Source of the DNA: a virus
DNA: 28,098 bases
Virus record (IMG/VR): IMGVR_UViG_3300042691_014204
Coordinates: 1 to 28,098 of that record
Reading direction: 5' to 3' (one strand)
Part shown: in pieces, positions 10,678-28,098 of the stretch
How the letters are laid out: each line of letters begins with the position of its first letter
How positions within the stretch are numbered: position 1 is the stretch's first letter
Position numbers and translations under genes: made by a program
Notes under the pieces: generated by a model
What the model saw: the letters and a program-made list of their open reading frames with translations, nothing else
What the model was told of the DNA's origin: nothing
Databases searched by the model: none

Positions 10678-10708
10678 GGTTCTGAAGCTCCGCGCAACAT
10701 ATCAATGA
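10481..10708 (+). CDS. Outer-membrane spanin candidate (Rz1-like lipoprotein), overlapping gene
   Basis: A protein of 75 residues in a different frame from the gene it overlaps, running 31 bases past that gene's stop. It starts MRFFLLLLMVALVPGC, a compact lipoprotein signal peptide with a lipobox-like LVPGC, so Cys16 would be lipidated after cleavage. The mature part contains Ser/Pro-rich sequence (SSPSSAPPQLRL) and a short helix at the end, as in Rz1-type o-spanins. ATG 10466 would add five residues (MTDLT); ATG 10481 has the local CCATG context. A lipoprotein nested in a membrane-anchored gene beside an endolysin is the hallmark of Rz/Rz1 and implies a host with an outer membrane. Confidence 0.62.
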   Translation: MRFFLLLLMVALVPGCHCLKLKQRDSVESSPSSAPPQLRLKSGVPYVPKTDEVWANQQDFLDLKAEVLKLRATYQ

Positions 10709-11271
10709 ATCGCCCGCCCCACGAACTCGAAATCGGCAAACACATCCTCGATGTGGAGGCTCGACGTGACCGTAGTGGTAGGCTTGCCGTTTACAAACTC
10801 CCTTCCGGGGACGGCGGCGGCACCTTTGAAGTTGCCGGGATCAACGACAAGTATCACCCAGAAGCTTCTGCTCGGATCGCTGACCTAATTGCTCGGAAGA
10901 AATTCGTGCAGGCTGAAGAGGAGGCCACCGAACACATCCTCAAAGTCACCGACGTAGCTGGTGGGTGGGCGAGAACTCCGTCCACCGAAGCCGTGCTCCG
11001 GGACACCGCATTTAATCGAGGCACCACCGGGTGCGCCCGCATCCTTCAGATGGCCCTTGACGTAGAGGTTGACGGCAAAGTTGGGCCTATGACGCTGGCT
11101 GCTTTGCAACGTGCCGAACGTGAGCCTCGTGCTTTCCTGCTCCGGTTCCGCGAAGCTCGTCAAGCCTACGAATTGAAGGTCGCCCCGCCTGTCGGGAAGC
11201 GTGTCAAATTTTGGAAAGGCCTCGTCTCTCGCTGGGACAACACCACTAAGTTCGCAAACACCCTCGTCTAA
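10705..11271 (+). CDS. Endolysin: GH108-type muramidase with PG_binding_3-type C-terminus
   Basis: A protein of 188 residues, the normal length for phage GH108 lysozymes, starting in an ATGA overlap with the spanin gene. The family's catalytic Glu near the N-terminus corresponds to E18 in ILDVEARRD, where most members read E-G-G. A Gly-rich stretch (GDGGGTFEVAGI) matches the family's GG-T--GI turn. The C-terminal half fits the PG_binding_3 domain: FNRGTTGCARILQMAL from F103, then DGKVGPMTL from D123. No signal peptide is visible, so export should rely on the holin. The enzyme would cleave the glycan backbone of peptidoglycan at lysis. Confidence 0.82.
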   Translation: MNRPPHELEIGKHILDVEARRDRSGRLAVYKLPSGDGGGTFEVAGINDKYHPEASARIADLIARKKFVQAEEEATEHILKVTDVAGGWARTPSTEAVLRDTAFNRGTTGCARILQMALDVEVDGKVGPMTLAALQRAEREPRAFLLRFREARQAYELKVAPPVGKRVKFWKGLVSRWDNTTKFANTLV

Positions 11272-11636: not shown

Positions 11637-14600
11637 ATGATCCGCCCAAAGCCCGACGTTCCTGAGCGCTATCCCATTCTCTCATTCCCGACCCCCGAAG
11701 GGCAGGCCGACCTTCTCTTCTATGAGCTCCGGGATGGAGACTTGCCCAAGAACAAAGCATGGAATTATGGTGAGCCGCATCCTGACGCGGCCAAGTTTCC
11801 CAACCATGAGTTAGTCTTCGTGTCCGCCGCTGAAGGTGGAGCTGGTTGGCAGCGCTGGTATTATGCAGCCAACCGTGAGAACCAGCACCGGTACAACTGG
11901 CAGTTCACTGACACCACCGACTGGCCTCAGCTAGCGCAGACTTTCATCGTTCGCCGGTCTGACTTCTCCGTGACGTCAACGTATGAGATGCCTCCTTTAG
12001 ATGTCATCCCATACCCACTGGAGTGGCTTGCTACTGGGATCGAAGAGCGCCCCATCAATGACGAGACTCTCGCGTCAACCTTTGTCACTGTCGTTGTAAC
12101 CCGTGAGAAGATCCGGGTTCGCGCTCAAGATGGCACATACAGTGACCGCGAGATCGTTGGACGTGAGTTTGACCCTGACACCAACTCCACGACTACCTAC
12201 CGTAGGAGCAAAGTTCCAGCAGGGACAATCATTCCTGAAGGCATCCAACCCGATGGATCTGTTGTCGAGCTCCAACCCGTCAACACTCTTTGGTCGATCA
12301 AGAATACCAAGCAGGCTGCAGGGTTGGCCGGTAAAGCCGTAAATGGAAAAGCTTCACGGACGTTTCAGATCATCACTAACTGGGCTTGGCCTGCCGTGCT
12401 TGACTCTGTCAGGATCACCCCAGTAAAGTCGGACCCCGGCGACTTCTACTCAGCCATCACAGGCTATGTGACCGTTCCAATCTATGCAGCGGACGCGTAT
12501 TCTGGCCCCTGCCTTGCAACCATTATTGAAGAGTGGACGTCTAAAATCCCCGTAATTGGAGGTGATGGGGAGTGGGACAGCACAAAGTCCACCAGCCCTG
12601 CGCTCCCCCAACCAACACCCTTACTGCCGAAAAGTATCTACTTCGACAGCCCAAGTTTACGAGTTAATGTTCCTGAGTGCTTACATGGAACCTTGAATTT
12701 TTACGAGGGTAACTTCGAGCAGGTTTACCCAGCAACTACTCCCTATCGGTGGCCTGGGTCTGTTGTTGCTGAAGTAAATCTCAGCGCCAACCAAGGTGGG
12801 TGGCTGAAAAGAATAATGATTGTTAATGCCCCGTCGCTGTCAGGAGTTCTAACGGAGCTCATGCTTGAGCTAGACGCGCTGAACGCCACATCATTTAGCC
12901 TCAAGTGGAACTCCTTGGTAGACGTATACTCCCTGTTCCTCGACATATCTACCGACCCCACGTTTAAAGCAGGAACATTCTTGTCTGGGTTTGAGAATAA
13001 AGATGTCAAAGGGACCGTTGGAACGTCTTTGATTTCTGTTTCTCGCGGCGTGACATACTACTGCCGGTTAAAAATGTCGAGGGCAGTAGGAGCTACATTA
13101 GCTGCAAACGCAGCTAAACAAGCCGCCTCAGCATCAGGGCAGAATAGCACCCAAGCGCAGGCAGCCTATGTAGCCGCGTATAACGCTTTTGTAAATGACG
13201 CCGTCGCAAACAACAGGCTCCAAGGGGACCAGTCAAACACCCTCGCGGTAACGTGTCCACCACAGCCCGAGATCTCCCTCGCCACCCCCGGGGTTAACTG
13301 GCCCACCATCCCAACCAACTACACTGACCTACTTACTGGAGGCACTCTTACGTTTGACCCTACACAAACGTCGGCACCGTTGACGAAGACTGTCATCATT
13401 AGAAACCCGGGGCTGCTTCCGCTGTCTAATTTATCAGTCACTTTTTCTGCTGGCGATTTCTCTGCGACTGGGACGATACCTACCACTATTGAACCCGGCC
13501 AGTATGGAGTAGTCTCGGTTCGATTTGCCCCGACAACAGTGGGGGATAAGACAGGCACTATGGTAGTAACGTCAAATGCTATCAACAACCCTTCGTACAC
13601 TGTCAATCTAACGGGGAGCGCTGTTCAACCTGAAATTGATGTAAGGTACCCAGTAGGGCAGACGCCTCCCGCATCTAAACCGTCCGGGTCTGGAATCGCT
13701 CTGGGTTCTGTTAACACTGGCAGTTCGCAGACGTATGTGTTCTCGATACACAACTCGGGTAATGGTAACTTGACCGCTAGTATCAGTACGTCGTCAACAG
13801 AGCCATCATTGTGGCAGTTAACGGGGCAGCCCAGTTCTGCGATTCCCCCAAACACTAGCGATGAGTTCGAGGTAACTTTTTCACCCGGAACTTCCGTCGG
13901 CACTAAGACACTAAATATCTCGATTATTAGTGATGATACGACCGACGCGGAGAATCCGTACATATTGACTTTAACCGCCGAGAGTATTGCTGTTGGGTCA
14001 ATAATAGTAGCTTCCCCAGACGGTGCAGTACTCCCCGACGGTACTTATGACTTTGGATTTTCAGCCATTAACGTCTCAAAAGCAAAACTCTTTACTATAG
14101 GTAATACTGGGGTGGGGACTCTCACTGGCATAACGGCTGCGCTATATGGCGGAGGGGCTGACCAATTCATACTGGGCACCTATCCCGCAACGGTCAACTC
14201 AGGTAGCTCGGGATCGTTTAATATAACTTTTAGGCCAACTGCAAGTACGCCCACGGTAAAGAGTGCAGTCTTGGCGATAACGAGCAGCGACCCTAATCGA
14301 TCAATATTTTTCGTTAACCTTAAAGGCACTGTGGGGACGGATCACGAAATTGTGGTAGAGAGTCCCCCGAATAACAACTTAGTAGACGGCGTCAGTGTTG
14401 TTAAATTTGGATCTGTGCTGAGAGGGTCAACTCCACTCAATAATTTTGTAATCCGAAACATTGGGAACAATCGCTTAAATTTAATAGGCAGCCCTCCGGT
14501 TTCCGTAGTAGGCGGAGATTCCGCAAAGTTTATGGTCTCAGCGTTATCTCCCGCCGTAGCACACCTCGATGACGGACAGAGTACGACGTTTAGCGTCACT

Positions 14601-15866
14601 ATGGATACAACAGGCGTTGTCGGCCCTCTTGAGACAACGCTTCAAATTTTCAGTCAAGACACCGACGAGGCTACGTTTGACGTCAAGCTTACTGGGTCGT
14701 CTTATGCTAGCGGCAGTATATCAACGTATCAGCCGAGCACGCTGGTTATAGGCCAGACCTCCGCTGCAGCCAGTATTAACGCTGTCACGGCTAGCGGCCT
14801 CAGCAGTCAGACGGTTCCTTTCCGGGGTGTTCTCGGGTCTCCCCGAGTAGCCATCAATCCTAATGGACGCGTTGCTGTCGCGGATACCGCAGCTAACCGA
14901 GTGCTTATCTGGAACAGTTACGCATCCCTTGCTACTGGCGCAGCGGCTAATGTGGTTTTAGGGCAGCCCGACTTTACTACCAGCATCGCGCAGACAAGCG
15001 CCAATGCTTCCAACCTTGCTTCACCAAAAGCGGTAGCTTGGTACGGAAACGCCCTTTTGGTAGCTGACTCAGGACGCAACCGAATTCTCATTTGGGATAA
15101 CCCACCCGACGGAACTACCGCCGACGGTATCGGAGGTGTTGGCGGGGTTTGGGCAGCAAATAGAGTCCTCGGTCAAGCAGGTAGCTTTACCACCGCTACT
15201 GGAAATTTTACGGCGGGTAAGTTTAGGGGGATTGTGGACATCTGCGTATCGAGCGGGGGTAAAGTTATCGCGGCTGACCCAGAAAATTACCGGGTCCTCA
15301 TTTGGAACACGTTCCCTGCGAGTAATGCGTCCCCCAACAATGTAATAGGGCAGTCAAGTCTTATTGTAGGCACTGATCCTTTGGGGGCACGATCTTATGG
15401 TACTGGCACACAAGCAGCCCGAACAAGTTACCCTTCAGCGGTCTGCGTCCACCCTACTAGTGGAAAGCTCTTTATTGCCGACGCAGCATATCAACGGGTG
15501 CTCCAATACTCCACTATCCCGACGACCCTCGACGCGGCTCCAGAAGCGGTGTTGTTTCAGACCGACGTATTAGGCACTGACCCCGGGGGCCTTTCTCGCG
15601 GTCAGTGTAACGCTCCGTCTGGGCTATCTATAAACGCAGCAGGGCACCTCGCTGTCGCAGACAACGGCAATCGGCGTGTTTCTATATTTTACTCGGCTAC
15701 TTTAGCGGGAAGCATCCCGGATGCTGTCGTCGGTCAACCAGACTTCACCACTAACACTAGCATAACTCGCTCTGAGCTTACGCTTTCAGACGCTTATGGG
15801 GTAGTGTGGCAAGGCCAAGACCTCCTCGTCACCGATAGAAACCGAGTCGCAATTTTCAAACCATGA
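11637..15866 (+). CDS. Large tail/receptor-binding-type protein: four choice-of-anchor-D Ig-like repeats plus NHL propeller
   Basis: A protein of 1409 residues. Residues 1-410 are a unique virion-attachment-type region. About 412-550 resembles a fibronectin-III domain (FSLKWNSLVDVYSLFLDIS at 420) interrupted by an Ala/Gln-rich helical insert (about 485-525). Four Ig-like repeats of about 85-100 residues follow at 579-663, 686-786, 804-900 and 921-1022, each with a V/F-x-I-x-N-x-G core and ending in a V-x-L-T/K-G strand, the choice-of-anchor-D/ASPM-SPD-2-Hydin pattern. About 1035-1409 holds NHL-type propeller repeats (NRVLIWNSY, VVLGQPDFTT, LLVADSGRNRILIWD, NRRVSIFYS). No signal peptide is present, as expected for a virion protein. 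Host recognition is inferred. The repeats use more A/T-rich codons than the N-terminus. Confidence 0.72.
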   Translation: MIRPKPDVPERYPILSFPTPEGQADLLFYELRDGDLPKNKAWNYGEPHPDAAKFPNHELVFVSAAEGGAGWQRWYYAANRENQHRYNWQFTDTTDWPQLAQTFIVRRSDFSVTSTYEMPPLDVIPYPLEWLATGIEERPINDETLASTFVTVVVTREKIRVRAQDGTYSDREIVGREFDPDTNSTTTYRRSKVPAGTIIPEGIQPDGSVVELQPVNTLWSIKNTKQAAGLAGKAVNGKASRTFQIITNWAWPAVLDSVRITPVKSDPGDFYSAITGYVTVPIYAADAYSGPCLATIIEEWTSKIPVIGGDGEWDSTKSTSPALPQPTPLLPKSIYFDSPSLRVNVPECLHGTLNFYEGNFEQVYPATTPYRWPGSVVAEVNLSANQGGWLKRIMIVNAPSLSGVLTELMLELDALNATSFSLKWNSLVDVYSLFLDISTDPTFKAGTFLSGFENKDVKGTVGTSLISVSRGVTYYCRLKMSRAVGATLAANAAKQAASASGQNSTQAQAAYVAAYNAFVNDAVANNRLQGDQSNTLAVTCPPQPEISLATPGVNWPTIPTNYTDLLTGGTLTFDPTQTSAPLTKTVIIRNPGLLPLSNLSVTFSAGDFSATGTIPTTIEPGQYGVVSVRFAPTTVGDKTGTMVVTSNAINNPSYTVNLTGSAVQPEIDVRYPVGQTPPASKPSGSGIALGSVNTGSSQTYVFSIHNSGNGNLTASISTSSTEPSLWQLTGQPSSAIPPNTSDEFEVTFSPGTSVGTKTLNISIISDDTTDAENPYILTLTAESIAVGSIIVASPDGAVLPDGTYDFGFSAINVSKAKLFTIGNTGVGTLTGITAALYGGGADQFILGTYPATVNSGSSGSFNITFRPTASTPTVKSAVLAITSSDPNRSIFFVNLKGTVGTDHEIVVESPPNNNLVDGVSVVKFGSVLRGSTPLNNFVIRNIGNNRLNLIGSPPVSVVGGDSAKFMVSALSPAVAHLDDGQSTTFSVTMDTTGVVGPLETTLQIFSQDTDEATFDVKLTGSSYASGSISTYQPSTLVIGQTSAAASINAVTASGLSSQTVPFRGVLGSPRVAINPNGRVAVADTAANRVLIWNSYASLATGAAANVVLGQPDFTTSIAQTSANASNLASPKAVAWYGNALLVADSGRNRILIWDNPPDGTTADGIGGVGGVWAANRVLGQAGSFTTATGNFTAGKFRGIVDICVSSGGKVIAADPENYRVLIWNTFPASNASPNNVIGQSSLIVGTDPLGARSYGTGTQAARTSYPSAVCVHPTSGKLFIADAAYQRVLQYSTIPTTLDAAPEAVLFQTDVLGTDPGGLSRGQCNAPSGLSINAAGHLAVADNGNRRVSIFYSATLAGSIPDAVVGQPDFTTNTSITRSELTLSDAYGVVWQGQDLLVTDRNRVAIFKP

Positions 15867-18062: not shown

Positions 18063-19337
18063 ATGGCTATCACCGCATCACGCACTTCTCTTGGAAGGGA
18101 CCTCGAAACCGGTCGCGAGGCCGCCGCTTCAAGAGGCCGCGCTTCCCTCATGCGAAAAGGACTTCGCCAAGCCAAGAAGGAAAAGAACTATGAGAAGGCT
18201 CTCCAGTTCAACGCTGCTCTTGCAAGTGAAGGTAAAGCCTACGGCATGACCGGAAGCGCCGATGATACAGCCTCGATCGCTCAGGGCCGCGTCAATGCCC
18301 GTGATGCCCTGTCAAATCAGATGCGCGGTCAGCTCCCAGCCATGGCTGGGCAGACCCGCGAGGGTAATATTGCCGCCGCCAAAGCGGCTGGAACCTTTGA
18401 CGCCACCCGTCAGAAGTATAATCAGGCTAACAGCGGCAAGAAGGTCATGGACGAAGCTGGCAACATCATGGATGCCCCGACTACTCCTGTGCCTAGCCCG
18501 ACGCCGACGCCAACCCCCGCTGCTAGCACAAACACGCCACCGGCCAATCCGACTCAACCAAAGCCACCCGCCAAAGTAGCTTCAGCTAAACCGTCGGGGC
18601 GCATCATGGATAACGGCGTTGATGTTTCCTCCGACATTAGGAAAGGGTTATCAGGGAGTCGCACAGGGGGGTTCTACACGGAAGGTACAGGTACTCCCGC
18701 ACCCGCCCCCACTCAACCTAAGCCAGTGACTCCTGCCGCCGAGGTAAACCCGGCACCTGCAGCACCTGATACTAGCGCGGTTAGGGAAAGCGCAGCCAAA
18801 GAGCTATTTAAGAAACCAGCGGGCGCAGAGAATAAGGCTCCTGAAAACCGCATTAGTAAACTAGTGCAAGATGTGAAGGCTGGAAGAGGTGACTCTGCCA
18901 ACACTCCGCAGCTACCTTCTTCGGCTTTTCCGCAGCTACCTCCTTTGGATATCCCAGCACCTATACCAAAAGCGGATACTGACAAACTTAGGGCTGAAGT
19001 AAATGCTGCGTTTACGCCGCCTGTACAAAAAGCAGTTCAAGGAGTAGGGAGGGTTGCAAAAGACGTAGCTAATGCAGCAGGCACAGCTATGTTAGCTGGT
19101 GCCCAAAATCTAGCTGAGGCCACAGGCCTCGCTGTCCCGCGAAAGGATAAAGAAAAGTTTAGTCAAACGGTCGCCGCACGCGCCAAAGGAGGCCCGGTCA
19201 AAGCTGGCAAGCCTTACCTCGTCGGCGAGGAAGGCCCCGAGATTGTCGTCCCAGATGAAGACGGTGAAGTTCTCCCCAACGAAAAGCTCCGTAAAAAGTC
19301 TCGTAAAGAGCTGCAAAAGATGCTCTCTAAGAGGTAA
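18063..19337 (+). CDS. Virion protein with tape-measure-type C-terminal motif
   Basis: A protein of 424 residues starting two bases after the previous stop in the AATTATGGC context. The N-terminal 120 residues are charged helices (RKGLRQAKKEKNYEKALQF). The middle (about 135-330) is a disordered Pro/Thr/Ala-rich region (SPTPTPTPAASTNTPP) with more A/T-rich codons. The C-terminus holds GGPVKAGKPYLVGEEGPE at 376-393 followed by IVVP, the signature that ends many tape-measure proteins of long-tailed phages, and then a basic helix (KKSRKELQKMLSKR). The protein is far shorter than a tape measure and no tail-tube genes are seen. It may be a short-tail internal protein that shares the motif. Confidence 0.6.
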   Translation: MAITASRTSLGRDLETGREAAASRGRASLMRKGLRQAKKEKNYEKALQFNAALASEGKAYGMTGSADDTASIAQGRVNARDALSNQMRGQLPAMAGQTREGNIAAAKAAGTFDATRQKYNQANSGKKVMDEAGNIMDAPTTPVPSPTPTPTPAASTNTPPANPTQPKPPAKVASAKPSGRIMDNGVDVSSDIRKGLSGSRTGGFYTEGTGTPAPAPTQPKPVTPAAEVNPAPAAPDTSAVRESAAKELFKKPAGAENKAPENRISKLVQDVKAGRGDSANTPQLPSSAFPQLPPLDIPAPIPKADTDKLRAEVNAAFTPPVQKAVQGVGRVAKDVANAAGTAMLAGAQNLAEATGLAVPRKDKEKFSQTVAARAKGGPVKAGKPYLVGEEGPEIVVPDEDGEVLPNEKLRKKSRKELQKMLSKR

Positions 19338-20409: not shown

Positions 20410-23400
20410 ATGGCTATCAAGACTTTCTCTGCCCTCCCAAGTTGGAATGATATTGAACAATCACCTACCTATCAGGAGTTAGACCAACCTCAACGCAAGG
20501 AGTACTTTGACCGCTGGCAGTCAACCTTCACCGAGGTCGCCACTGAAGATCCTGACAACATCACCCCTGAAGTCTGGGAAGGATTCAAAAAGTTTCGTAA
20601 ACAGAAGAGCCGCGACTTGACGGGAGCTACTGGCTTGACGGCGGCGAACGCCGAAGCCGAGGATGAAGCCGAGGATGAAACGCCGTCCCGTATTCAACTC
20701 GCTGCGCGTAAGCGTGAGCTTGAAGCAAAGTCCGGCACGTTTCTGGGAGGCACAGACCTCACACGGCTGCAAGAGGAAGAGCGCAACGAGCTAGCCAACC
20801 TTCGTAGCGTGGTCGCTGATACCGACGAAGACGACCTTGATGCCATCGAAAAGGTTGCCAACGATGACGAAGACTTCCATGTAGCTGACGGTGCTTTCTT
20901 TGCCAGCCCCAAGTTGACGCTCGACTCGCAACGCTACCGCGACACGGTCCGCAATAACAAGGCGTTGACGCCTGAGCAGAAAGTCGAAGCCCTGATGCGT
21001 GGTCGTTCGCTGCGTGAAGAAACCGGCGCTCGTCTCAAAGCAGACATTGACGCCGCCGACATGGCATTTGAAGACACTTGGTTAGGCGGCATGGATAAGT
21101 TCCGTGCGTTTGAACGAGACGTCCGCGAAGGCGACCCTGACGCCACCGATGCCGACATCATGGAGAAGTGGCAGAAGGAGAACGGCTCGTGGTATTCTAA
21201 CCTCGGCACCCAGATAAAAATCGGTGGGTTCCAAGGTGCCGCCCAAATTATCGGCGCCTACTACGGCGTCAAAGGTTTGGTCGGGATCGACACCGAGAAC
21301 TCTCAGCGCATGGCTCAAGCGGCTACTGATGTTAATGCCCAGCTCGCCGGAGCCAGCAAAGCAACCGGAGGCGCAACCCTTGCGGCTGACGCTACTGCTA
21401 TGGTGGTGACATCGCTGGCCACCCTACCTGCGGGCCCCGCTGGTCGAGGAGTTATGGCTGCTGGTCGCATTGCCGCTGGTACGGCTGGCCGCTTCGCTGC
21501 TGCTGCTACTGCTGGCCGTCTTGGTGGATCTGCGCTTGTCCGCGCTGCCACACTCAAGGCCGGTGGTGAAGCCGCCGCTAAGATTACTGCTCGTCAATTA
21601 GCTCTTGCCAAAACCGGAGGTATCGCGGCGTCCGCATTTGCCGCTGGTGTGCAGAGCGCCGGTGGAGCGTTTAATCAATACTTCGATCAGTTCCTGAAGG
21701 AGGAACTTGCTGAGATCCCAGAAGCTAACCGCACTCCTCAAATCATTGAAGAGGCCCGACGCCGCGCCCGTGATGGAGCCCGTGGAAGAGCCCTTGTTTC
21801 TGGAGCCGTCACAACGCTCATCACCGCTGGCTTCGGCGCAACGGGTGCTGAGAAACTTGCCGCCCCGCAAGCTAGCCGAGCAGCTCAAGCGGCCAAGGAA
21901 GGACTGGTTGTATTCCTCGGCAAATCTCTCAGCAAAGAAGCTCTCTCGGAAGCTGGTGAAGAAGGTCTTGACGCCCTCGCCAATGGGATCATTGACAAGG
22001 CAACGGTAAATCCCGGCAAGCCTCTCGAAGAGATCGTCGAGGAAACGCTGAAGTCTGCCCTCGCTGGCGGTATCCTTGGTGCTGGAATGTCTGCTCCGTT
22101 TGCCGTGTCTGACGCATTCAAAGCTAGGGCGGAAGCGAAGAAGAACCCAGCGGTTGCCGGGCTTGAGCAAACCGCCGCAAGACTTGACGGCCTTGCCCCT
22201 GCTTCCGCTGCAGCCGTGCGTGAGATGGCCGGTACCATGACGCAAGAACAGCTTGACGCAAAAGCTGCCGCTGACGCCGCTGCCGCTGACGCCCTGCTCA
22301 ATCCGCCGGTTGATGCAGGTCTCCAGAAGGTGGTTGACCAAGCCGCCAAAACTGGTGGCGCTCCTGCCACTAAGGCTCCGGTAAATGTCGTTCCTGCTGA
22401 GGCTGCTCCGGTAGCTAAAGGAAACGGATTTCAGGAATTGAGCGACGAAGACCTTGAAAATAATATTCGTCAAACTGCCCTTCTGGCAAACGAGAGTGCG
22501 GTTGAGGCCACCCAAGCAAACCCTACTGCTGGGTCACGAGAAGTGGCAGAGCTAGCTCAGAAGAAACTCGATATGCTGCGCGGCGAGCGTGAACGACGCA
22601 AGCAGACCGCTGCTCCTGCTCCTGCCGCGACTTCTGTCGGAGTCCCGATGATGGTAACCAAAGGCATGGAGAAGCAGCTTCTTGACAGAGGTTATACGAA
22701 ACAGCAGGTCGATGCTATGAAGCCTCAAGAGGCTCAGGATATTCTGAATCCTCCTGCAGCTCCTGCTCCTGTGGATGTTGTTGTTGAAAGCAGTCCCGCT
22801 CTTGCCCCCGCTGTCGGGGAAGCTCCGGCTCCTGCCGCTGCTGTCGAAGGGGCTCCTACTCCCGAGTTTGCTCCCACCGCTGAAGAGCAGGTATTCCAAA
22901 CTTCAAAAGGTAGCGAGTACATATTACATAGCGACGGGACTACCACCCGCAACAAGGCTGCTCGCCCTGAGCATCCGGGAGAAGAAGGCGTCCAGCCTAG
23001 AAGCTCTCGCACTATTTTTGTCTCCGAAGAAGGAATGAACGCGTTGGGCATTGTTCAGACCGAGGGAGTTAAGTTCAATATCGAACAAATGCCAGACGGA
23101 CGATGGGCTGCTCGCGCAGTGGATGGGCCTAACAAAGGGAAGTTCTACCAAACATCCATTACAGAAGCTAGCGACACTCCTTCTGCAGGGCTCATGCCTG
23201 TAGAGATTTGGAACCGAGAAGGTCGTCCTCAAGCTGTCCATTTTGGTAACAAGATTACGGGCGTGTCCCAGACTGCTGCTCCTGCTCCTGCCACTCCAGC
23301 AAGACCAGCCGCGACCACCATCAATGTCCCAGCTAAGCCAGTCTCAGTGACTAGGCCCGCAATGACTCCAGAAGTCCGCGTGACTGCTGTTCCTGCTCCC

Positions 23401-26400
23401 GTCGAAGAAGCTGCCCCTGCCCCAACAATCGACCAAGTTTGGGACGAACTGATCACAGCTAAGAGTAAGCTGGACGCAACCAATGATCCTGCTGAGTTAG
23501 TCGCTCTGAACGAGTCGATCAATAAGCTGAAGGAGACTATTAAAAACAGCGTCGAGCCTGCCCCGACACCTGCCGAAGAGACAGCTCCCGTTGAGGAACC
23601 TGCTTCAGAGGAAGAAGACACCGTCTCAATCGTATCAGACGAGGTCGCTAAAGCTGTGACCATCAACGAACAGGAAGCTAGAGACTATGTCGCTAAAAAC
23701 TATCCGGGCGTTGAAGTTGTAACAACTAGTGAGGCTACCGCTGACGGGTACCAGTGGAGAGGGCGCACGAACTTCACCCGTCAGCCTCCAAAGATTACAG
23801 TTAATCTGTCCAACATTAGGGACATGAGCCAACTAAAGAATGTTGTTCACGAAGAACTTTCTCATGTTGCTTACAACGACCCTGATATTTCTAAGAGCCT
23901 TAAAAGTCTTGTAGAGTCTACAAAGGTAAGAGAAGAGCTCGCTTCTATCTATGAAGAAGGAGAGGTCTTTGAAGAAGCCGTCGTCAAGAGGATGGCGGAT
24001 CTCGTTGACTCTTATTCAGAAAAAGGGGCATTTAATAAGCTGCTCACATCTATTAAATCCTATGTTAAAGGAAAGCTTGGAATCACCCTTAATGACAGCG
24101 ATCTCGCTTACGTCGCATACAGAGCTATTGTCAGAGCTAGTAAAGCTATTAACTCGCAAAGCGTTAGCAAAGCACCTCCTCCTCCAAGAGAGGGCGCTGA
24201 GGTTAATTTCTTTGATACTATAGACCTTGAACTGTTTGCAGCAGATGAGGCGAACATACCCGAAGCAGCGGTTAACCGGTACATCGATACTCGTTTAATT
24301 CTGCTCGCTGACAATAGACTAAACTATTCTCGAATCGATGCCTTTGACTTGTTTAAGTTTTTCCAAGATGCGAGATATGGAGATAAGCCCAGTAGAGATA
24401 AAGTTAGGCGGCATATAAAAGAGACTGCGGCTACCAATCTTTATGCGAGAAATAAAATCCGTGAGTCTGAAAAACAGAGCAAGTCAAACAGACGGAATTT
24501 TATGTTCCTATCTGGAACGTCACTACTATCGCTAGGTTACTTTGGTTTCTCTTCAACACAGACTCAGCCTCAGACTCAGCTAAAGCCTAAAGCTCCAGCA
24601 CAACCCAAGCAAGCTAAGCCAAAGCCTAAATCAGACAGTGAAAAAATAGAGGAAAACAATAGAAGGTTATTCCGAGAGTTTAAAGAGTCTCTTGTCTTTG
24701 ATAAAGAGACTAGCGACTTGATTAACAACACTTCTGAAAAGGTAGGCAAAGAGAAAAATAGCCGTCTTTCTGTGAAAGTGAGTGTCGGACCAAAAGCTTA
24801 TGATCCTGTAGAAGACTTAACTGGACTTCCAGAGGTAGTCGAAACAAACGCTCTTGATGAAAACAGAAACTCTATAAGCTTCACAAAGCGTGAGTACTCT
24901 GAAAAGGCGAACGAGATTATAAAGAAGCGAGAAAAACTAGAGGCTAATAAAGATGCCGTTGTTTCGGGCGTCTCTAAGATCATCAGGATTGCCGAAGAGC
25001 TGACCGGCTTTAAGCTTTCTAAAGATGTAAACATAGTTCTCAGAAACTTTGAATCCGACACCCTAACCTCTTTGATGAGGTCTAGGAAAGAAAAAGACCC
25101 TAAACAAATGGTGTGGTCTGCCAGCACAAATATCGAGTCGGGCGATATTAAAATGAACACAGAGGCAATCTACGACATTGTCTTTGGAGACGTTGAAAGT
25201 AAGATAAACGCGGCCTCTACACTGTTTAACGAGATCACTCATGTGATGCAGTTAAACAAAGGTAAGTCCGGCGAGCTTGGCGAACTTGGATTTACGCCTA
25301 CTCTTCCATACCCTATAGAAGTTTCATACAAAGCTTGGTTGGATGAGTTTTACGGACCTCAGACAGACAACATAGAATACGAATCTTTCGTGTTAGACTA
25401 TATGGGGACGAAAGTTCTTGAGCAGATTAACAACGTAAAGAGAACTGAGTTCTCTGACGAGTACATAACCTCGAAGGTTAAAGAAAACCGCCTTAAAATT
25501 ACCCACGGGAGAGATTTAATCCTCATCAAAAACCCGGTCAGATATTCAAAGGTGGCCCCTAAGTCAGCCAAGGCTACCCCTGAGCAAGCTGCCCTCAAAG
25601 ACAAGCTCATGGTGCTCGTCGGGCTGGCAGAGAACACTAAAAATCCAACACACATCCGCTCAGGTAGCGTAGATGCGCTTAATCTTTACCAGCAACAAGC
25701 CTCAGCACTCGGGACAAGCGTTGAAAAACTTATCGGTAGAGACATCCCTGTAGTTCCCAAGTTCACCCCACCCACACAGACCAATGAAAGCCAAACAAAA
25801 AAGTCGCCAACAAGTAGCGTTCCTCCTGTCGAAGGGCAGCCCGCTGTCGGAGAAGAAGCAGGACCGACTAAAAAGCGAGCTCCGGTCAGGACTCGTCAGA
25901 GTAAGTCCAGCGAAACCGAAGCGGTAGCTCCCCGTGAGCAAGCCATCGATCTTCTCCGCGAGGAGATGTTCAAGAATAACTTCTTGCCGACCGTGAAGGA
26001 AGTTTCGGAGAAGATCTTCCAGAGAACAGGCGTGGGGATAAGCTATCAAGATCCTACGGGGGAGCTAAAGCAAATCACTGACGGGTTGCTCCGCGATTGG
26101 AACGCTAGGTATCCTGCTGAAACGGAGAAACCTGACGGCACCTTTACGGGAGCTAAATCCGGGACTGCGATGAAGACTACCGAAGGTAGGTCTAAAGAAT
26201 ACATCCGCGACAATGGGGGCGCGGTACGCTACAAACTCGTCAACGGTAAACGGGTTGGGTTTTTCAGTAACCTCCCTCTTGAGACAGCCATGCAGCTCAA
26301 CGCTGGTCTCAAGGTGAACGTGCCTGTCGCTCTTCGCGGTAAGCTCGCTCCCGGAATCACAATCAATGAGTCGGGCGATGTGGTATCTGTATTTGAGCCC

Positions 26401-28098
26401 ACCCGAAACGTCACCGTTACGGGACTCGGAGAATGGTACGACGCGTACAAAGTTAGTCCTCAACGCCAAGCTGCTGCGGATACACAGCTCAGGGCTGGCG
26501 ATAAAGTAAAGAGGCCTATCGAGGAGCTGCGAAAGATTGTCAGAGCCAAGACGCTTAAGCTTTCACTTGAAGCTTACGGGAGAGGCAAGCTGACCCCCGA
26601 CGAAAAAGTCAAGACACAGAAAGAATTGGTGGCCGCCGCTGAAGACATTGCGGCTCTCCTGAACACCCAGAATCCCCGCATCCCTCGTGTGGGGACCGAA
26701 GCTTTCGTGGCTCTTGAAGCTCCTATCGAAATGCCGAACGAGGCTGACGTCTATAAAGCGTACGAGGCTGAGATTAGGAGAATAGAAGCGGCTATCAAAA
26801 CTCAGACGAAAAACTTTAGAGATCTAATTATAGATGAGATTAACGACGGCTACGTTTATCAAGCAGTTCTGAACCAGCTTAAAGTAGACATTCGCACAGC
26901 AATCGCAAAAAACCCGCAAGCTACTCCTAAAGCTATTGCAGCGGGGTTGAAAGCTATGGACTTCAGGGTGCGGAATGTAGCCCTTCAGTTCAAGAAACGC
27001 GCTTCCAGTCGCAAGTCTATTATTGCAGGCTCCATTGACTCGGACGAGTTAACTGACGAAATCAACAAAGTTTCGACACGCGTTAACTTCCCTGATGATG
27101 AAGCCCTTGCCAACACCCCGATAACTCCTGAAGAAGTTGAGACTCTACGGGCCGCTTTGCAGCGAATGAACGACGGGGAAGAAAACAATGCTAGCTTGGG
27201 AATCCTCCAGCGAAACCCTTTCCTAGCTCGTCAGGCTCTTGCGGCTATCAAGAAAAACGACGACATAAAATTCAAGGTCGGCAACAATGATCTTATTTTT
27301 GAGCATGGCCCTCCACTTAGCTCTGACGAATCCACAGGTCTTGCAGCGATCCTTAAAGGATTCGCTCCTGAAAAAGATACCACCTTTGTTAAGTCAATCG
27401 AGGCGCAGCCTAACATGGCTCGGTTCCTCTTAGACTACATATCTCTAGGACGCGATGTGTTGAGGAAGGTTGTCGATAGGGCAGGCAGGCGTGTCTATTC
27501 GGACACTCAACTTCAGGAGATGGGTCTCCTTGCAGTTGCCGGGAAAGTCAGCGCTGAAGACAGCACTATGGTGCCGCTAATTATTGCTCAGGCTTCTTCC
27601 AACCTCGAATCCTATGGGTCCGCTGGACCTAAAAAAGCACGAGGTCTTCTACAGACTCTACTCCTCCGTGCTCCTAGCCCTATCAAGGTTGCCAGTGCCA
27701 CCGCTCCTACCGCTGAGACTCCTGTACCAGCGCCGGTCGAAGAGGCCGTAAAAGAAGAAAAGGCTAAGCTCGTCAAGAAGGCGGCTATCGCGCCGACGGT
27801 AGCCATCAACAAGGGGTTAAGCATGAAGCCTCTAGTCCCTGCAGTGAACAACACTCCAGAGCAGAAGATGGGCTTTGTCAGTGAGTTGTCAGCGATTGGC
27901 TTGTCCTCTACGTCTGACGTCTCAGCAATCCCTGCAGCCCTGAATCGTTTGTCCGTCAAGGAGAACTCCGGTAGCCCACACTTCAAGGCCCTTGCTCGTG
28001 TGTTCGCTGATAAACCAGCTCTCTTGAACGGCATCGATGGCGTGCAAATACTGGATGACGCAAACCTCGCTGAGGATGTTTCCGTGATCAATGGAGTC
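20410..28098 (+). CDS. Giant modular virion protein (polyvalent-type), 3' end beyond window
   Basis: One frame stays open from ATG 20410 to the last base, 2563 codons without a stop. Seen in order: a charged helical N-terminus with acidic stretch (1-265); Gly/Ala-rich hydrophobic segments (271-300, 323-380, 461-480); an EAGEEGLDALANGIID to GGILGAG segment (513-571); Pro/Ala linkers (about 734-747, 780-825, 955-1008, 1051-1070, 2418-2453); a small beta domain (826-950) with HSDGTTTRNKAARPEHPG; a zincin-like domain with HEELSH at 1147-1152; a hydrophobic segment (1364-1381) and a Gln/Pro/Lys linker; a second zincin-like domain with NEITHVMQ at 1607-1614; then helical and mixed regions. Huge multi-domain proteins of this kind are known in phages as polyvalent proteins, thought to enter the host with the DNA. 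That role is inference. Confidence 0.8.
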   Translation, partial: MAIKTFSALPSWNDIEQSPTYQELDQPQRKEYFDRWQSTFTEVATEDPDNITPEVWEGFKKFRKQKSRDLTGATGLTAANAEAEDEAEDETPSRIQLAARKRELEAKSGTFLGGTDLTRLQEEERNELANLRSVVADTDEDDLDAIEKVANDDEDFHVADGAFFASPKLTLDSQRYRDTVRNNKALTPEQKVEALMRGRSLREETGARLKADIDAADMAFEDTWLGGMDKFRAFERDVREGDPDATDADIMEKWQKENGSWYSNLGTQIKIGGFQGAAQIIGAYYGVKGLVGIDTENSQRMAQAATDVNAQLAGASKATGGATLAADATAMVVTSLATLPAGPAGRGVMAAGRIAAGTAGRFAAAATAGRLGGSALVRAATLKAGGEAAAKITARQLALAKTGGIAASAFAAGVQSAGGAFNQYFDQFLKEELAEIPEANRTPQIIEEARRRARDGARGRALVSGAVTTLITAGFGATGAEKLAAPQASRAAQAAKEGLVVFLGKSLSKEALSEAGEEGLDALANGIIDKATVNPGKPLEEIVEETLKSALAGGILGAGMSAPFAVSDAFKARAEAKKNPAVAGLEQTAARLDGLAPASAAAVREMAGTMTQEQLDAKAAADAAAADALLNPPVDAGLQKVVDQAAKTGGAPATKAPVNVVPAEAAPVAKGNGFQELSDEDLENNIRQTALLANESAVEATQANPTAGSREVAELAQKKLDMLRGERERRKQTAAPAPAATSVGVPMMVTKGMEKQLLDRGYTKQQVDAMKPQEAQDILNPPAAPAPVDVVVESSPALAPAVGEAPAPAAAVEGAPTPEFAPTAEEQVFQTSKGSEYILHSDGTTTRNKAARPEHPGEEGVQPRSSRTIFVSEEGMNALGIVQTEGVKFNIEQMPDGRWAARAVDGPNKGKFYQTSITEASDTPSAGLMPVEIWNREGRPQAVHFGNKITGVSQTAAPAPATPARPAATTINVPAKPVSVTRPAMTPEVRVTAVPAPVEEAAPAPTIDQVWDELITAKSKLDATNDPAELVALNESINKLKETIKNSVEPAPTPAEETAPVEEPASEEEDTVSIVSDEVAKAVTINEQEARDYVAKNYPGVEVVTTSEATADGYQWRGRTNFTRQPPKITVNLSNIRDMSQLKNVVHEELSHVAYNDPDISKSLKSLVESTKVREELASIYEEGEVFEEAVVKRMADLVDSYSEKGAFNKLLTSIKSYVKGKLGITLNDSDLAYVAYRAIVRASKAINSQSVSKAPPPPREGAEVNFFDTIDLELFAADEANIPEAAVNRYIDTRLILLADNRLNYSRIDAFDLFKFFQDARYGDKPSRDKVRRHIKETAATNLYARNKIRESEKQSKSNRRNFMFLSGTSLLSLGYFGFSSTQTQPQTQLKPKAPAQPKQAKPKPKSDSEKIEENNRRLFREFKESLVFDKETSDLINNTSEKVGKEKNSRLSVKVSVGPKAYDPVEDLTGLPEVVETNALDENRNSISFTKREYSEKANEIIKKREKLEANKDAVVSGVSKIIRIAEELTGFKLSKDVNIVLRNFESDTLTSLMRSRKEKDPKQMVWSASTNIESGDIKMNTEAIYDIVFGDVESKINAASTLFNEITHVMQLNKGKSGELGELGFTPTLPYPIEVSYKAWLDEFYGPQTDNIEYESFVLDYMGTKVLEQINNVKRTEFSDEYITSKVKENRLKITHGRDLILIKNPVRYSKVAPKSAKATPEQAALKDKLMVLVGLAENTKNPTHIRSGSVDALNLYQQQASALGTSVEKLIGRDIPVVPKFTPPTQTNESQTKKSPTSSVPPVEGQPAVGEEAGPTKKRAPVRTRQSKSSETEAVAPREQAIDLLREEMFKNNFLPTVKEVSEKIFQRTGVGISYQDPTGELKQITDGLLRDWNARYPAETEKPDGTFTGAKSGTAMKTTEGRSKEYIRDNGGAVRYKLVNGKRVGFFSNLPLETAMQLNAGLKVNVPVALRGKLAPGITINESGDVVSVFEPTRNVTVTGLGEWYDAYKVSPQRQAAADTQLRAGDKVKRPIEELRKIVRAKTLKLSLEAYGRGKLTPDEKVKTQKELVAAAEDIAALLNTQNPRIPRVGTEAFVALEAPIEMPNEADVYKAYEAEIRRIEAAIKTQTKNFRDLIIDEINDGYVYQAVLNQLKVDIRTAIAKNPQATPKAIAAGLKAMDFRVRNVALQFKKRASSRKSIIAGSIDSDELTDEINKVSTRVNFPDDEALANTPITPEEVETLRAALQRMNDGEENNASLGILQRNPFLARQALAAIKKNDDIKFKVGNNDLIFEHGPPLSSDESTGLAAILKGFAPEKDTTFVKSIEAQPNMARFLLDYISLGRDVLRKVVDRAGRRVYSDTQLQEMGLLAVAGKVSAEDSTMVPLIIAQASSNLESYGSAGPKKARGLLQTLLLRAPSPIKVASATAPTAETPVPAPVEEAVKEEKAKLVKKAAIAPTVAINKGLSMKPLVPAVNNTPEQKMGFVSELSAIGLSSTSDVSAIPAALNRLSVKENSGSPHFKALARVFADKPALLNGIDGVQILDDANLAEDVSVINGV
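22609..22626 (+). repeat. 18-bp direct repeat, copy 1, in Pro/Ala linker
   Basis: GCTGCTCCTGCTCCTGCC occurs here and again at 23275-23292 in the same frame (AAPAPA). A near copy lies at about 22,754. The copies sit in linkers that flank a folded-looking module (about 826-950) of the giant protein. Confidence 0.8.
23275..23292 (+). repeat. 18-bp direct repeat, copy 2, in Pro/Ala linker
   Basis: This is identical to 22609-22626. Recombination between the two would delete or exchange 666 bases in frame (222 codons), removing the module between the linkers without a frameshift. Confidence 0.8.

Follow-up and report, generated by a model that had tools for sequence, protein, structure and literature searches.

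The window analysed here, a whole viral record of 28,098 bases, ends inside a reading frame that occupies its last 7.7 kb, and the question raised by this locus is what kind of protein such a gene makes and what else its DNA encodes. The features discussed below are collected in Table 1. At the base composition of the window, 2563 stop-free codons have a probability of about 1e-52, which rules out a chance open frame. Because the record ends at position 28098, the stop lies off the contig, and the truncation of the gene is that of the contig and not a biological one. A search of IMG/VR gave three complete orthologues, of 4537 aa (L002), 4255 aa (G002, on the minus strand of L014) and 3897 aa (L010), on contigs of 56, 69 and 62 kb; they read on to a stop, in agreement with the preliminary description, which had claimed a single open frame continuing past the window. 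When the end of the window was mapped onto these three proteins, the full length came to 4718-4973 aa, and we thus expect a giant of about 4700-5000 aa. Its gene stands at the end of a late gene run, after small late genes, and the giants of related phages have the same placement. A search for the host over genome contigs found no relatives. On the 69-kb orthologue contig, an integrase gene was observed (L012:12605-13474; phrog_1, E 3.5e-23), so that the phage group may be temperate.

Table 1. Features of the giant gene and its surroundings. Positions are those of the window unless another contig is named; aa numbers are those of the giant protein.
Feature	Position	Strand	Remarks
Late gene, 310 aa	17128..18060	+	Adaptor-like by position only
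Giant main-frame ORF	20410..28098	+	Starts at ATG; 2563 codons without a stop
Conserved N-terminal region, aa 1-600	20410..22209	+	Gly/Ala-rich in part; 57-62% identity to three orthologues
Ala/Pro-rich linker, aa 601-826	22210..22887	+	
Cargo module, aa 827-957 (KGSxY...DGTTxRxKAxRPEH...VHFGNxIT)	22888..23280	+	Unnamed; common to phage giants and a MobF relaxase
Cargo region, aa 1085-1260, HEELSH at aa 1147	23662..24189	+	Possible HEXXXH-type zincin; motif only
Cargo region, aa 1440-1720, NEITH at aa 1607	24727..25569	+	Possible degenerate zincin; motif only
Linker, aa 1787-1840	25768..25929	+	Third codon positions better conserved than in all other segments compared
Conserved region, aa 1792-2418	25783..27663	+	33-38% identity to orthologues
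Nested gene, +1 frame, ATG..TAG	25784..25927	+	47 aa: MKAKQKSRQQVAFLLSKGSPLSEKKQDRLKSELRSGLVRVSPAKPKR
Nested gene copy in L002	L002 13770-13913		
Nested gene copy in L010	L010 12525-12668		
Nested gene copy in L014	L014 13228-13371	minus	
Start of further conserved region, aa 2444-2563	27739..28098	+	Cut by contig end; 48-52% identity

Looking along the protein, we found different modules parted by linkers, as had been described before: aa 1-600, 1792-2418 and 2444-2563 align to the orthologues, whereas aa ~820-1790 do not, other sequence being present there instead. The GC content is 0.39-0.46 over ~23.7-25.6 kb, compared with 0.45-0.63 (mostly above 0.50) in the remainder of the giant gene, and this low GC suggests that the cargo was acquired by exchange. 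As judged from alignment and composition, the middle of the giant is exchangeable, mostly low-GC cargo held between conserved ends. The preliminary description had left most modules unassigned. This still stands for Pfam, PHROG and NCBIfam, in which the whole window protein had no significant match, and for PDB sequences, which gave none, or weak chance-like matches, with the aa 827-957 module, the conserved regions, the zincin region and aa 1401-1787; relatives of the cargo at aa 1081-1784 were also searched for and none was found. It has to be amended for aa 827-957, a widespread though unnamed polyvalent module, and for two other regions that are zincin-like by motif. An ART-like insert suspected by eye in one orthologue (G002, aa ~2770-2980) had no Pfam support.

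The module at aa 827-957, which no model in Pfam, PHROG or NCBIfam matches, was placed by tblastn in gp22 of Sinorhizobium phage PBC5, annotated as DarB-like antirestriction, and in one faecal phage contig. It is also present in the MobF relaxase of the conjugative plasmid pBPHYT01 (L027:4882-9342), between the relaxase and helicase domains; a second, weaker place for it is reported in this plasmid. An alignment search yielded 67 IMG/VR loci with the module, many of them long phage ORFs, the longest with at least 3353 aa; an HExxH or HExxxH motif is present in most of those above 2000 aa. When the domains of 19 carriers were listed, LPD38 was found in seven, InPase in four, LPD39 in three and LPD22 in two, with ddrB-ParB, ART-PolyVal and SLT in one carrier each. 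Since its carriers hold known polyvalent domains, the module belongs to the polyvalent-protein toolkit (PMC5512222). In one locus (L030:5776-6429), it forms a near stand-alone gene of 217 aa directly after a giant-type ORF of 1907 aa.

We then considered the zincin-like domains. An HExxH domain is intact in the orthologues (aa 3049 in L002), in the second half of the protein; in the window phage, its predicted counterpart would lie in the part of the gene that is missing from the contig. Run against a small test set, this orthologue domain matched internal virion proteins of Novosibovirus PM75 (E 6e-11) and Maculvirus DE17 (E 2e-10), as well as the virion RNA polymerase of the Schitoviridae phage MIF8 (E 3e-9). 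N4-like virion RNA polymerases are reported to be always fused to such zincin domains, and that of N4 to be packaged unprocessed (PMC5512222). Within the window, HEELSH fits the HEXXXH zincin variant described in the same paper (PMC5512222), its region having no profile match, and the NEITH region matched neither a profile nor a PDB sequence. Thus, although the modules of the window protein are parted by linkers, no enzymatic domain of this part was matched by a profile, and HExxH is confirmed only in the second half of the orthologues.

The giant resembles the polyvalent proteins of phages and conjugative elements (Iyer et al. 2017, PMC5512222) in being a very long multi-module protein with a zincin hub domain, and in having modules common to both kinds of element, including carriers of LPD38, LPD39, LPD22, InPase, ddrB-ParB and ART-PolyVal; it differs from them in that the window protein matches no Pfam LPD model, contains the unnamed module and is overlapped by a second gene. 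The N4-type virion RNA polymerases of Schitoviridae are giant virion proteins whose HExxH domain is homologous to that of the orthologues, and the window giant would likewise be a giant virion protein; in contrast to them, neither it nor the 4537-aa orthologue has an RNA polymerase domain detected by PHROG or Pfam. The T7-like gp16-type internal virion (ejectosome) proteins of Novosibovirus and Maculvirus also have the homologous HExxH domain and come last after small late proteins, whereas the giant is 3-4 times longer, carries cargo modules and gave no match to SLT or any other peptidoglycan enzyme (transglycosylase). With no such profile matches, an identity as virion RNA polymerase or transglycosylase was rejected.

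T7 gp16 and the N4 virion RNA polymerase are virion proteins that accompany the DNA into the cell. By analogy with these two, and also with conjugative relaxases, the giant would be assembled into the virion and would enter the cell along with the DNA, as the preliminary description proposed. Assembly and passage would be the task of its conserved ends and core, its exchangeable middle would carry the cargo modules, and the zincin domain of the missing half, present in the orthologues, may process the giant; a role in counter-defence is possible. We consider it unlikely that the giant is instead a non-virion protein, produced late and retained by the cell to act in, say, assembly or lysis: its location in the virion is argued from analogy, and an endolysin-like gene with a PG_binding_3 domain (window 10705-11271) belongs to the same gene run, but its modules are common to proteins that travel with DNA (conjugative relaxase, N4-type virion RNA polymerase) and to T7-like internal virion proteins, and its place behind small late genes, closing the run, is that of the giants in related phages. 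As a kind, a giant polyvalent protein, probably of the virion, is well supported for this locus. The giant modular protein of the preliminary description thus keeps its place, as it closes a late gene run and shares modules with polyvalent and conjugative-element proteins (PBC5 gp22, the MobF relaxase and carriers of LPD38, LPD39, InPase and ddrB-ParB).

The most unexpected feature of the locus, absent from the preliminary description, is a second gene nested in the +1 frame of the giant, within a linker. At aa 1787-1830, the identity at third codon positions is 0.77-0.91 in all six pairs, compared with 0.24-0.55 in every other segment compared, and the amino-acid identity of the giant frame is only 40-60% there. 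The nested ORF is present in all four phages with identical ATG, stop position and 144-nt length, and in its own frame the identity is 67-90% at positions 1 and 2 and 50-69% at position 3. When the giant was recoded synonymously, the number of invariant nested columns averaged 1.5 and never exceeded 8 in 20,000 trials (22 of 47 observed); this null uses the codon usage of the genes themselves, which rules out a codon-composition artefact behind the third-position signal. Recoding the small protein left the giant frame free of stops in 2-5% of the trials for a single phage, and none of 20,000 trials kept it open in the four phages together. The recoding tests and the substitution patterns show that both frames are constrained in the four phages, and by this measure the small frame is an overlapping gene. 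The nested copy is the sole copy in the three orthologue contigs, which were searched whole. The small protein is basic (net charge +9 to +11); no significant match was found in 50,697 phage records, PDB sequences gave none or weak chance-like ones, and no match in either set pointed to a function. The giant gene of L002 contains three copies of a 27-nt piece, ACCCCCACTACCAATGAAAGCCAAGTC (L002:12971-13783), one of them at the start of the nested gene.

Conservation of the linker could also reflect a DNA or RNA element, such as a site at which cargo recombines, a structured RNA or a regulatory site, with the small frame left untranslated. The conserved stretch indeed borders the exchangeable cargo precisely on its right, and L002 has two further copies of a 27-nt piece resembling it; however, identity is distributed over the codon positions as expected for the +1 frame (higher at 1 and 2 than at 3), the ATG, stop and length of that frame are kept in all four phages, and its stand-alone homologues elsewhere are protein-like genes. 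No covariation of RNA pairs was detected within the nested gene, which led us to reject a conserved RNA structure under it, and no Rfam family matched the window. We regard an untranslated element as very improbable and retain a protein-coding nested gene.

The alignment of the four nested copies was used to search viral sequences, and 80 of the 87 stretches found were kept. Stand-alone homologues of the small protein are present in over 70 other viral contigs: outside the orthologues the gene is separate, of ~40-67 codons, and no same-strand ORF of at least 100 aa covers it, with the exception of one contig (L165, see below). Among the stand-alone copies, the identity is 0.75, 0.83 and 0.41 at codon positions 1, 2 and 3; by this pattern they evolve as a protein, and the small frame is a member of a real protein family. 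The frame equivalent to that of the giant is open through only one of 31 stand-alone copies. In nine loci, the stand-alone gene is directly upstream of a homologue of the 310-aa late gene, and in others this homologue lies within a few kb; the product of the window gene had no PDB match. The gene that follows it in the window (18063-19337) encodes a Pro-rich protein of 424 aa, the C-terminus of which matches tail tape measure families at their ends (phrog_1538, E 2.5e-8).

The phages with a stand-alone gene are relatives, because they have in common with the orthologues a large NHL/Ig-like protein or replication genes. In the window, the protein of this type (11637-15866) is a late product of 1409 aa that combines Ig-like domains of the HYDIN/ASPM type with NHL repeats (Pfam E as low as 1e-19), which is unusual for a phage structural region. 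All four stand-alone contigs examined for them (L176, L177, L178 and L180-L181) contain giant ORFs, of 4229 aa, at least 3557 aa, at least 3322 aa and ~4415 aa, the last over two adjoining pieces. These giants are mostly of other sequence; a clear HExxH region akin to that of the orthologues is present in three of the four, and no nested copy was found in the pieces read. The exception mentioned above, L165, has a homologue of the 310-aa late gene and a giant-type ORF of 1631 aa of unrelated sequence, and its copy of the small gene is nested in the +1 frame of a Pro/Glu-rich linker of that ORF; the host frame would be open there by chance with a probability of 0.009. In a small tree the four nested copies group together and L165 stands apart, a topology that, with weak support from 33 residues, suggests two separate nesting events. 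The giant frame would have grown over a pre-existing small gene, as a linker tolerates almost any sequence.

The nested ATG has no Shine-Dalgarno sequence before it, the stand-alone copies largely lack one too, and a sequence of this type precedes only one of 18 gene starts in the window (328-20410). The phage group thus appears not to rely on it, and the host may use another way of starting translation. A programmed +1 frameshift in the C-rich linker would give another product, namely a second, truncated giant, of ~1840 aa for the window phage, with the small basic domain at its end. For such an event, the +1 frame is open upstream of the nested ATG in all four phages, over 10 to 75 codons, and the upstream sequence is C/Pro-rich with CCC runs. 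Yet all four phages retain the ATG, at a place that aligns with where the stand-alone relatives start; we saw no conserved slippery sequence, and the codons immediately before the ATG vary; we therefore hold a frameshift origin to be improbable. The small protein would instead be made from the same mRNA as the giant, from its own ATG, and it is probably a late accessory protein of the virion or of its assembly.

Altogether, the explanation that we find probable for the whole locus is that one stretch of DNA encodes both a giant polyvalent protein and an overprinted, conserved 47-aa protein. A bolder proposal, which we judge doubtful, is that, in this group of phages, a small late gene has been taken up time and again into the linker of giant virion genes, in a second frame. 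The shared DNA would then anchor cargo exchange and couple the doses of small and giant proteins, either because translation starts internally or because a +1 frameshift also terminates a short giant right behind its cargo.

Giant polyvalent proteins are known already, as are nested genes in phages; in the full text of open-licence papers, we found no description of the small family or of its nesting in a giant. The Rz1 gene of phage lambda is a small gene wholly within Rz, in the +1 frame. The arrangement described here is alike in this respect and differs in that the proteins are unrelated to those of lambda, the outer gene is giant and modular, and the inner gene has many stand-alone relatives, which make the history of the overlap visible. 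It is thus a clear case of overprinting whose birth is open to study, because the separate state of the inner gene can still be seen in related phages, and small nested genes of this kind are easily missed in annotation. As for the giant itself, the module at aa 827-957 adds an unnamed domain to the toolkit common to phage giants and conjugative relaxases, and it offers a concrete target for the question of what is delivered on entry.
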